A stretch of DNA of 49,437 nt from positions 1 to 49,437 of the forward strand of contig JANXAC010000009.1 in NCBI GenBank assembly GCA_025061835.1. Direction: 5' to 3'. Below the pieces are notes generated by a model. That model ran no database searches and was not told the DNA's origin. It saw only the letters and a list, made by a program, of their open reading frames with translations. Within the stretch, counting starts at the first letter, position 1; each line of letters starts with the position of its first letter. Below are positions 11,901-24,839 of the stretch, in pieces. This DNA is from Spirochaetota bacterium. GTDB taxonomy: Bacteria; Spirochaetota; Brevinematia; DTOW01. Made by a program: the position numbers and the translations under genes.

Positions 11901-12716
11901 TTAATTTTTGGAACCTAGTAGTTTCTTTACAGTATCCTGTATGTCTGTAGGTATAAAAAGTATAGTTGTATTATTTGACTTGGCTATTTCCTTGATAGCG
12001 TTTACATACTCCTTCGCTATGAAATACATCATGGATGCCATTCCACCTTCTATTATAGCTTGTGTAACAAATCTTATTGAGTTCGCATCTGCTTGTGCTA
12101 GTCTCTCCCTTGCTTCAGCTTCTCTTTGAGCTGCTTCCTTCAAAGCCTCTGCTTGAAGTATGGTAGCACGCTTCTCCCTTTCTGCTTTCATCTGAAGCGT
12201 CATAGCATTTTGTATATCCGCCGGTGGTGATATATCCTTTATCTCAACTCTTGTTATTTTTGTTCCCCACTCATCTGTAGCCATGTCTAACTCTCTTCCT
12301 AGTTCCTCGTTTATTTGGGCTCTTGAAGATAAACTCTCATCCAAGGTTAGCTTACCCATTATTGACCTTAGATTAGTCATAGTAAGTTGTTCAATAGCTC
12401 TATTAAGGTTTGTAACACCATAAGCTGCTTTTTTGGGGTCTATTACTTTGTAGAATACAACAGCATCAACCTCAACAGTAGCATTGTCCTTGGTAATTAT
12501 TGTCTGTTTTGGTAAGTCTAAAACCTGTTCCATAACATTTATTTTGTAAGAAATTTGATCAAAAACAGGCATTATTAGGTTTAAACCAGGTTGCAAAACC
12601 TTGTTGAATCTACCAAATCTTTCAACCACGTAATTGTACCCCTGCGGAACTGTTTTCAAGCCAGTTATCACTATTATTGCAACTGCAGAAAGTATTACTA
12701 TTATGAATATCTCCAT
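11901..12716 (-). CDS. SPFH/Band 7 membrane protein, QmcA/slipin-like
   Basis: A 271-residue member of the stomatin/prohibitin superfamily, which forms large oligomeric rings on membranes. One N-terminal transmembrane segment (about 2-20), then VPQGYNYVVERFGRFNKVLQPGLN at the start of the SPFH domain, the LDLPKQTIITKDNATVEVDAVV core and DEWGTKITRVEIKDI, and an alanine/glutamate-rich coiled coil (KAEREKRATILQAEALKEAA). These match the QmcA/slipin-1 group. AGGAGG precedes the ATG, with an 11-base gap. The NfeD partner usually encoded next to slipins is absent. Confidence 0.85.
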   Translation of the reverse strand: MEIFIIVILSAVAIIVITGLKTVPQGYNYVVERFGRFNKVLQPGLNLIMPVFDQISYKINVMEQVLDLPKQTIITKDNATVEVDAVVFYKVIDPKKAAYGVTNLNRAIEQLTMTNLRSIMGKLTLDESLSSRAQINEELGRELDMATDEWGTKITRVEIKDISPPADIQNAMTLQMKAEREKRATILQAEALKEAAQREAEARERLAQADANSIRFVTQAIIEGGMASMMYFIAKEYVNAIKEIAKSNNTTILFIPTDIQDTVKKLLGSKN

Positions 12717-12909
12717 AATATACTTGACCTCCTTGAGTATAAAAAATAAATCCCTGTATGCTCTTATTTCAACTAGACACAGAAAATGTTAGTAAATACT
12801 AATCCCCATTAGGTGAGAAGTTATTCTAGGCTTTTTGCTTGCCACTTCAGTTCTGGATAGCGTTCATAATTACAAAATTTAGACTTTGATTACTATATTC
12901 TAACTGACT

Positions 12910-12939
12910 TTGCCTTGGTAGAAAGTAGTAGTTTATAAT
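12910..12939 (+). promoter_or_regulatory. Promoter of the tRNA-Ser(CGA)-argC unit
   Basis: TTGCCT (12910-12915), an 18-bp spacer and a consensus TATAAT (12934-12939). The start should be near 12946, about nine bases before the mature tRNA 5' end. No separate promoter fits between the tRNA and argC, which are two bases apart. Confidence 0.6.
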
Positions 12940-12954
12940 CTTATTTGAAAAATC

Positions 12955-13042
12955 GGAGAGGTGCCAGAGCGGACGATTGGGACAGACTCGAAATCTGTTG
13001 TCCTCCTTCGGGGGACCGCGGGTTCAAATCCCGCCCTCTCCA
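12955..13042 (+). tRNA. tRNA-Ser (anticodon CGA)
   Basis: Acceptor strands GGAGAGG (12955-12961) and CCTCTCC (13035-13041) pair fully. The anticodon stem ACAGA/TCTGT carries loop CTCGAAA, anticodon CGA, reading UCG. A long variable arm (GTCCTCC TTCG GGGGAC) and the T arm GCGGG/CCCGC with loop TTCAAAT confirm a class II serine tRNA. The discriminator position is A (13042) rather than the G usual for tRNA-Ser, and CCA is not encoded, so it must be added by a nucleotidyltransferase. The argC ATG begins three bases after the discriminator. Confidence 0.95.
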
Positions 13043-13044
13043 AT

Positions 13045-14073
13045 ATGGATAAAATAAGGGTAGGTATAGTTGGTGCTAGTGGATATACTGGTTCAGAACT
13101 CATCAGAATCCTACAAAGGCACAGATATGTAGAGATTTCATTCATTACCTCAAGAACACTCGTAGGAGAGAGAATATCAAAGGTATTTCCAGAGTTTCAA
13201 GGTCTGAACCTAACATTTTCCAATACCGAAGAAGTCTCAAAAAGGTTGTCTTCAAGCGATGCAGACATTGTATTCCTTACACTACCTCACGAACCAGCTA
13301 TTGAATTTGTAAATATCATCCATTCAAATAACATTAAAGTCATTGACTTAAGTGCATCTTATAGGTTTAAGAACAAAGGTATTTTTGAAGACACATATAA
13401 GATTCATCATCCTTATCCAAATTTACTTGAGAAGTCTGTCTGGGGACTTACTGAAATGTTTAGGAATGAAATAAAGAATACTAGCATAGTTGGAAATCCT
13501 GGTTGCTACCCGACGAGTGTCTCACTTGGACTGATGCCGTTAAAAGAGATAAAAGATAAGATAAATCTGAATGATATAGTTATAGACGCAAAGTCTGGTA
13601 TCTCCGGTAAAGGTAAGAAGGTATCGGAAGATTCAATATTCGTTGAACACAATGAAAACTTCTACGCATACGGGCTACCATTTCATAGACACACACCTGA
13701 AATTGAGCAGTTTATAGATTTCAATTTTGGAATGAAGGTAAAAGTAACATTCATTCCTCAAGTTGTTCCTATGGATAGGGGAATATTTTCAACAATATAC
13801 ATCCAAGCAGAAGGAGTAAATCAAAAGATGTTAAATGACCTCTATGTTTCATATTATGAAAACGAGTATTTCGTTAAGGTTATTGAAGACATACCTCAAA
13901 CTAAATGGGTTTCAAACACAAACAATTGTTTCATAAATGTTAGATACCTCGATAGGACTGGAAAGATTGTGATATTTTCAGTGATAGACAACCTCGTCAA
14001 GGGAGCGTCAGGACAGGCAGTTCAGAATATGAATGTAATCTTCGGATTTGACGAAAAAGAAGGACTAGTGTAG
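13045..14073 (+). CDS. argC: ArgC, N-acetyl-gamma-glutamyl-phosphate reductase
   Basis: ArgC reduces N-acetylglutamyl phosphate to the semialdehyde in arginine synthesis. The protein starts MDKIRVGIVGASGYTGSEL with the Rossmann GASGYTG loop, has the active-site cysteine in SIVGNPGCYPTS, SGISGKGK and the HRHTPEI block, and ends with DNLVKGASGQAVQNMN; 342 residues, full length. The frame is open upstream through the tRNA to 12961, but that extension translates the tRNA and is not protein. The ATG at 13045 follows the mature tRNA 3' end by only AT, so tRNA 3' processing would leave argC mRNA with a two-base leader. argJ of the same pathway is far away at 44306. Confidence 0.93.
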   Translation: MDKIRVGIVGASGYTGSELIRILQRHRYVEISFITSRTLVGERISKVFPEFQGLNLTFSNTEEVSKRLSSSDADIVFLTLPHEPAIEFVNIIHSNNIKVIDLSASYRFKNKGIFEDTYKIHHPYPNLLEKSVWGLTEMFRNEIKNTSIVGNPGCYPTSVSLGLMPLKEIKDKINLNDIVIDAKSGISGKGKKVSEDSIFVEHNENFYAYGLPFHRHTPEIEQFIDFNFGMKVKVTFIPQVVPMDRGIFSTIYIQAEGVNQKMLNDLYVSYYENEYFVKVIEDIPQTKWVSNTNNCFINVRYLDRTGKIVIFSVIDNLVKGASGQAVQNMNVIFGFDEKEGLV

Positions 14074-14111
14074 TAGATTTTTCTCAATCTTAACTATTCA
14101 AAAACATAGGT

Positions 14112-14726
14112 TTAATACTTAGTTCTAACTTGTTTGTTTGTGTTTGTTATGACTGATATTCTATAGAACTGTTTTCTATAAACACTGTTTGCGTAATCAA
14201 CCAGTTGCTTTGCCTTTGAGTAGTCGGACTTAAAGAGTATGAGTTTAGACAGATTTGATATTGCCTCTTGTAAGTTTTCATACGACATAACTTCGTTATT
14301 CAGCAACGAATATGAGACAGAGAGAGAGGTTAAGAGTTCTATGTAGTTCAGCGTGTAAATGTTCTTTTTATCGGACTTTTTATACACTTTCAAGGCATTT
14401 GTGCCATAATATAGTGATAATTCAGGAATGCCTCTTAAGGAGTATATGAGAGACATTCTAGCGAGTGACACAAAATCTTCGGGGAACTTTTCTAGGACGA
14501 TCTCATAATATTTCATAGATGCAACCTTTGAACTTTCAAAGACCATGTCTGCTATTGCTCTGTACCTAATATGCTCCTCGTATTCACTAACTTTGTCCTC
14601 GTCAATTGGAATACCGTTTATGTAAATTTTTTTTGCCAGAGAGATAGAGACGATTAGGAAGACAAAAAGGAAAACTAGGACTATTTTTTTCATCATAATT
14701 ATTGTCGTCATATTTTTGGGATCCAT
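14112..14726 (-). CDS. Secreted TPR-like protein of unknown function
   Basis: Up to 204 residues. A signal peptide is clear from the MM pair at residue 11 (MMKKIVLVFLFVFLIVSISLA), so translation may begin at 14696 or 14711 rather than the outermost ATG at 14726; no ribosome binding site decides it. The mature protein is helical with tetratricopeptide-like spacing (KYYEIVLEKFPEDFVSLARM, then LYYGTNALKVY), typical of periplasmic adaptor proteins. No family is recognised. It is divergent from the lytic transglycosylase gene at 14781, with only 54 bp between them. Confidence 0.6.
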   Translation of the reverse strand: MDPKNMTTIIMMKKIVLVFLFVFLIVSISLAKKIYINGIPIDEDKVSEYEEHIRYRAIADMVFESSKVASMKYYEIVLEKFPEDFVSLARMSLIYSLRGIPELSLYYGTNALKVYKKSDKKNIYTLNYIELLTSLSVSYSLLNNEVMSYENLQEAISNLSKLILFKSDYSKAKQLVDYANSVYRKQFYRISVITNTNKQVRTKY

Positions 14727-24831: not shown

Positions 24832-24839
24832 ATTTACCA

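Follow-up and report, generated by a model that had tools for sequence, protein, structure and literature searches.

The DNA analyzed here (the window) is a 49,437-nucleotide stretch from a Spirochaetota bacterium, in which a gene for tRNA-Ser(CGA) is followed so closely by argC that next to nothing separates the two. This arrangement raises the question of how the 5' end of the argC mRNA is made and how ribosomes may start on it.

The tRNA-Ser(CGA)–argC Junction

At the 3' end of the tRNA, the acceptor stem (GGAGAGG/CCTCTCC) is followed by the discriminator A at 13042, the dinucleotide AT, and the argC ATG at 13045 (Table 1), such that the folded tRNA stem ends 3 nt upstream of the start codon. 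The product of the ORF at 13045 matches the ArgC model TIGR01850 above its curated cut-off (E-value 2.7e-113), and the first position of the model aligns with residue 4, indicating that this ATG is the natural start of argC. A previous sequence-only reading had placed the tRNA end at 13042 without an encoded CCA and the argC start at 13045, and ARAGORN, the sequence, and TIGR01850 bear out all three assignments. It had also assigned a single promoter to both genes. The TTGCCT-18-TATAAT upstream of the tRNA is indeed exact and is the sole sense-strand promoter-like match in 12720-14200, although a match of this kind does not prove function, and shuffled sequences contain at least as many sites when both strands are counted. 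The view that argC lacks a ribosome binding site holds as well. There are only 2 nt of space, and no Shine-Dalgarno (SD) sequence was found before argC (best duplex, +1.9 kcal/mol), even though the anti-SD of the 16S rRNA is of the usual type.

Table 1. Features of the tRNA-Ser(CGA)–argC unit, in window positions.
Feature	Position	Strand	Basis
Predicted sigma-70-type promoter of the tRNA–argC unit (TTGCCT-18-TATAAT)	12910..12939	+	Consensus match alone
tRNA-Ser(CGA), discriminator A, CCA not encoded	12955..13042	+	ARAGORN; Rfam RF00005, 54.7 bits; acceptor pairing
Predicted two-base 5' leader of the argC mRNA (AT)	13043..13044	+	Sequence; orthologous leaders A, A, AAGT; cleavage inferred
argC, N-acetyl-gamma-glutamyl-phosphate reductase, 342 aa	13045..14073	+	TIGR01850, 378.7 bits (cut-off 233.6)
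In-frame but spurious upstream continuation of argC through the tRNA, GTG at 12961	12961..13044	+	ORF 12961-14073; the extension is tRNA sequence

The unit is isolated in the window genome (G000), with a divergent gene upstream (11901-12716) and a convergent gene downstream (14112-14726). A tRNA is present 5' of argC and none 3', where the end of argC adjoins the convergent gene. The discriminator of this tRNA is A, whereas it is G in the four other tRNA-Ser of the same genome and in the tRNA-Ser(CGA) orthologues of three relatives (G001, G003, and G004).

Conservation of the Pair Within the Family

The family was sampled by five incomplete draft genomes, including that of the window. In all four of these that have argC, tRNA-Ser(CGA) lies directly before it, and the leaders behind the discriminator are AT in G000, A in G003, AAGT in G001, and A in G004, which belongs to another genus. 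This recurrence with leaders of 2, 1, 4, and 1 nt is more than chance. The sequence-only reading had proposed comparing this spacing among relatives, and the comparison gives 1–4 nt in four of four genomes, held over approximately 70% protein identity and two genera. The flanks of the pair differ in all four genomes. Based on gene names read from translations, the neighbor is a divergent SPFH-type gene in G000, a same-strand V-ATPase subunit I-like gene in G003, and yet other genes in G001 and G004. That the flanks change while the pair persists suggests that the tRNA–argC pair itself has been kept. Eight argC loci from the other families of the class were inspected, and none has a tRNA before argC. 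The SD-like duplex before argC has energies of -5.9 to -11.4 kcal/mol in those families, compared with 0.1 to 1.9 kcal/mol in the window's family.

Other tRNA–Gene Junctions

The stretch behind every tRNA of G000 and most tRNAs of its relatives was read for further junctions. A tRNA abuts an ORF with a leader of 0–5 nt (once 8 nt) in 20 junctions that represent five pairs; in addition to tRNA-Ser(CGA), the tRNAs for Glu(CTC), Val(CAC), Met, and Gly(GCC) each have a conserved gene immediately behind them in the majority of the five genomes. The tRNA-Glu(CTC) precedes a conserved exported-type protein by 1 nt in four of four genomes (1/1/1/1). The tRNA-Val(CAC) precedes a V-ATPase-G-like protein, a weak match (TIGR01147, E-value 9e-5), in all five genomes with leaders of 2/1/1/1/1 nt; the scripted value of 0 nt in four of these becomes 1 nt with a standard 7-bp stem. 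The tRNA-Met is followed by yggS (TIGR00044, over the cut-off) after 3/2/3 nt in three genomes, and yggS was not found behind this tRNA in G004. The tRNA-Gly(GCC) is followed by a DUF2905 gene (PF11146, over the cut-off) in four genomes after 5/4/5/8 nt, the last being alternatively 5 nt to a GTG; DUF2905 was not found behind this tRNA in G004. At 4–8 nt, this is the weakest of the five pairs.

Other junctions are less fixed. A SpoIIE-domain protein follows tRNA-Leu(CAG) after 1 nt in G004, 1–2 nt in G002, and 10 nt in G000. An alkaline-phosphatase-like gene (L050, L093) behind the initiator tRNA directly abuts it in G003 (0 nt) but is 35 nt away in G000, which suggests that such pairs may be gained or lost. 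In G001, tRNA-Ala(GGC) has a junction with a 0-nt leader. The remaining tRNA-linked genes of G000 (secE-, rpmG-, rpmF-like, and others) have leaders of 11–25 nt, mostly with an SD.

The locus of the exported protein, which has no family assignment, has the order tRNA-Gln(CTG)–tRNA-Glu(CTC)–exported protein (L046:2380-3000 (-), L158–L161). Its 1-nt leader is fixed in four genomes, whereas the signal-peptide-like N-terminus of the product diverges.

To set these junctions against a background, a pattern consisting of a tRNA T-arm, the acceptor, 0–3 nt, and ATG was searched in the five family genomes and in nine genomes of other families. In the former, 19 of 32 matches begin a long frame, nearly all with orthologues. 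Among the 31 matches in the latter, no convincing gene start was found, and two are chance open frames. The resulting Fisher p of 8e-8 (19/32 vs. 0/31), or 9e-6 when the two chance frames are counted, is too small because matches from related genomes are not independent. Counted as independent gene pairs, there are five to eight in the family and none in the other families. By chance, an ATG within 0–5 nt that opens 70 codons or more occurs at a rate of 1.7% in G000; for 46 tRNAs, 0.8 such junctions would be expected, and five were observed. Two candidate junctions from other families of the class were rejected. L189 has a stop in its relative L190 and a later start at +41 in both; L195 has an SD-led start at +21, and its frames are broken in relatives.

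Signs of Leaderless Genes in the Window Genome

Start sites were surveyed in 629 kb of G000 containing 455 genes. An SD is present in 221 of these and absent in 201 (about 44%). Leaderless genes may be recognized by a TANNNT about 12 bp before the start (PMC3160421). A TTG-TANNNT promoter-like match with the -10 hexamer beginning at -16 to -12 of the ATG, a placement that brings the transcription start to the ATG or a few bases from it, was found for 44 of 165 SD-less genes with an upstream gap, compared with 2 of 158 SD genes. This difference in promoter placement is a strong sequence sign of leaderless expression; leaderless mRNAs seem routine in G000, and their translation looks routine as well. 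A tRNA-derived leader of 1–5 nt fits leaderless-type initiation, as far as can be read from these sequences.

Examples of SD-less genes with a -10 box in the leaderless position are found in the window at 24839, 7544, and 1312 (all on the + strand). These signs look much stronger in G000 than in other families of the class, for which the sample is small. Regarding the ribosome, a 5' phosphate is reportedly required (Giliberti et al.) and an AUG near the 5' end is said to help (Krishnan et al.), both works being listed among the references of PMC9031893 and both in agreement with a monophosphate AU-AUG end.

Proposed Processing of the Transcript

We propose that the single promoter would produce a dicistronic tRNA-Ser(CGA)–argC transcript and that a tRNA 3'-finishing endonuclease would cut it right behind the discriminator. 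This cut would free both the tRNA and an mRNA starting with (5'P-)AU-AUG, which ribosomes of this lineage could translate as a leaderless or near-leaderless message. CCA is unencoded in all 46 tRNAs of G000 and a CCA-adding enzyme is present, and thus each tRNA needs trimming to the discriminator. With only 1–4 nt before the AUG, the start codon would be lost if the transcript were cut farther downstream and then trimmed back; an intact argC mRNA would therefore require an endonuclease that cuts just behind the discriminator. In the uncut transcript, a stable acceptor stem stands three bases away from the argC start codon and should keep the ribosome from reaching it. It is plausible that tRNA maturation would "license" argC translation, as a structural necessity. 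Overall, we put the probability at about three in four that tRNA 3' cleavage behind the discriminator yields a near-leaderless argC mRNA and that this pair and others in the family, at least five in total, represent bacterial tRNA punctuation. In a simpler view, a lineage that tolerates leaderless mRNAs can readily obtain 5' ends from a tRNA gene with its strong promoter and precise 3' cleavage. Counting against this explanation are the small number of genomes (five of one family, all incomplete drafts), the RNase Z results given below, and the G-run in the acceptor strand of tRNA-Glu, which could serve as an SD in an unfolded tRNA (-7.8 kcal/mol).

The sequence-only reading had attributed the cut to an RNase Z-type enzyme. 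Cleavage after the discriminator and the near-leaderless product gain from the 1–4 nt spacing and at least four further pairs, whereas the type of enzyme is uncertain. No protein over the cut-off of TIGR02651 was found in 18 genomes of the class; as a control, 9 of 14 other genomes pass it. TIGR02650 had no match in the five family genomes. The best TIGR02651 match in G000 scores 48.7 bits in a six-frame search and 80 bits as a protein (cut-off, 293). This best match, L071, is of the RFWGVRGSIP type and aligns with both ends of the model but not with the stretch between, where the substrate-binding arm lies. L071 was rejected as RNase Z, being of a different MBL family that is common to all class members; L155 was rejected as a PhnP/GPMC-type MBL, and a third candidate, a 722-aa MBL that carries a cyclic-nucleotide-binding-like tail, was dropped. 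The loci that bear on a canonical RNase Z not being found in the 18 class genomes, although the tRNAs of this family do not encode CCA, are L071, L155, L167, L169, and L171.

The tRNA 3' cut would then be made by a highly divergent RNase Z or by a different enzyme. Given that a canonical RNase Z could not be detected in the class and that a 1-nt spacing requires endonucleolytic cutting at an exact position, we tentatively consider that tRNA punctuation by a 3' endonuclease other than canonical RNase Z may be the family's standing source of leaderless mRNAs, a suggestion that we hold at well below even odds. A U no more than 2 nt from the discriminator stimulates RNase Z in Bacillus subtilis (PMC10100781); such a U is present at argC in the window and absent from the 1-nt leaders.

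Alternative Explanations

The closeness of the genes may reflect plain genome compaction, such that genes abut tRNAs by chance, an uncut or variously cut transcript is translated ordinarily, and the tRNA is cut without any special role. The genome is small (1.8 Mb), and not all pairs are fixed, as the 10-nt leader of the Leu(CAG) pair in G000 and the 0- and 35-nt leaders of the initiator pair illustrate. However, compaction does not readily account for a distance of 1–4 nt kept over the protein divergence and the two genera described above, with leaders that lack an SD. The 30S subunit should be unable to bind with a folded tRNA only three bases away from the AUG, and the design is absent from the sister families examined. 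We consider compaction improbable. A promoter of argC inside the tRNA gene, which would give a primary leaderless or short-leader mRNA independent of tRNA processing, appears slightly less probable still. The sequence-only reading had stated that no space exists for an argC promoter; strictly, one could sit within the tRNA gene, and promoter-made leaderless genes are common in G000, but no promoter-like match was seen there. The -10 position is occupied by acceptor/T-stem sequence (CCCTCT before argC) rather than TANNNT, this sequence is also GC-rich in the other pairs, and the same absence applies to five different tRNAs.

The sequence-only reading further suggested that the junction couples serine tRNA supply to arginine synthesis. 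Conservation of the pair in four genomes would be in line with such a regulatory circuit, but the idea finds no parallel at the other junctions, where the partners (the V-ATPase-like subunit, YggS, DUF2905, the exported protein, and the SpoIIE-domain protein) share no amino-acid logic with their tRNAs, and no sensing element was seen. A single primary transcript fixes a 1:1 production ratio without a sensing step, and therefore joint transcription alone is no sensor. A serine–arginine circuit is thus very unlikely, and the tRNA–mRNA link probably serves to generate a 5' end. Translation of argC from a start inside the tRNA (GTG 12961 or further upstream) has a negligible chance of being correct. 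Although all four genomes keep the frame open across the tRNA, the extension changes frame between relatives with the lengths of the leader and the variable arm and does not match ArgC, the model of which begins at residue 4 of the product from the ATG.

Relation to Known Systems

Both tRNA–mRNA operons and leaderless mRNAs are well known in bacteria. Operons of the tRNA-Trp–secE and tRNA-Thr–rpmG type, both of which are also present in G000, resemble the tRNA–argC unit in having the tRNA upstream and presumably cotranscribed. However, their leaders are 11–25 nt long, mostly with an SD, and cleavage leaves a normal ribosome site, whereas argC has 2 nt and no SD. Promoter-made leaderless mRNAs, as described in work on TA-led genes (PMC3160421) and in a review (PMC9031893), have a leader too short for an SD and begin at or close to the AUG, as the argC mRNA would if cut behind the discriminator; its 5' end, however, would come from RNA cleavage and carry a monophosphate. 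The passages of that review considered here do not list tRNA processing as a source of leaderless mRNAs. It discusses and questions the MazF-made leaderless mRNAs of Escherichia coli, which would be alike in arising by cleavage after transcription. MazF is a stress toxin that makes sequence-specific cuts in mRNAs, whereas the tRNA–argC transcript would be cut in the course of constitutive tRNA maturation.

The closest parallel comes from animal mitochondria, where tRNAs punctuate the mRNAs (Ojala, Montoya and Attardi, 1981, cited in PMC11996679). In both cases, the tRNA abuts the ORF, 3' cleavage would make the mRNA 5' end with a leader of 0–4 nt, and CCA is unencoded. In contrast to the mitochondrial arrangement, in which tRNAs lie on both sides of mRNAs within genome-length transcripts, the window unit is bacterial, has a tRNA on the 5' side only, and does not have its mRNA 3' end set by a tRNA; a handful of genes are involved, with a separate promoter ahead of the tRNA in every unit. 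A bacterial tRNA-punctuated leaderless mRNA, the fusion of a tRNA–mRNA operon with a leaderless mRNA, was not found in the largely open-access literature searched. The proposed design is functionally like mitochondrial punctuation and differs from it in genome organization and the small number of units.

If the proposed processing is correct, a free-living bacterial lineage uses tRNA maturation to generate the 5' ends of mRNAs, as is otherwise associated with mitochondria, and punctuation needs just leaderless translation and an exact tRNA 3' nuclease. It would also point to a further tRNA 3' nuclease in the class. The conserved natural junctions would provide a test set for ribosome starts on short monophosphate leaders. 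Finally, the argC frame is open through the tRNA (12961-13044), and gene callers may annotate an N-terminally extended ArgC that overlaps it; the same warning applies to other tRNA-abutting ORFs, which may be extended into the tRNAs.
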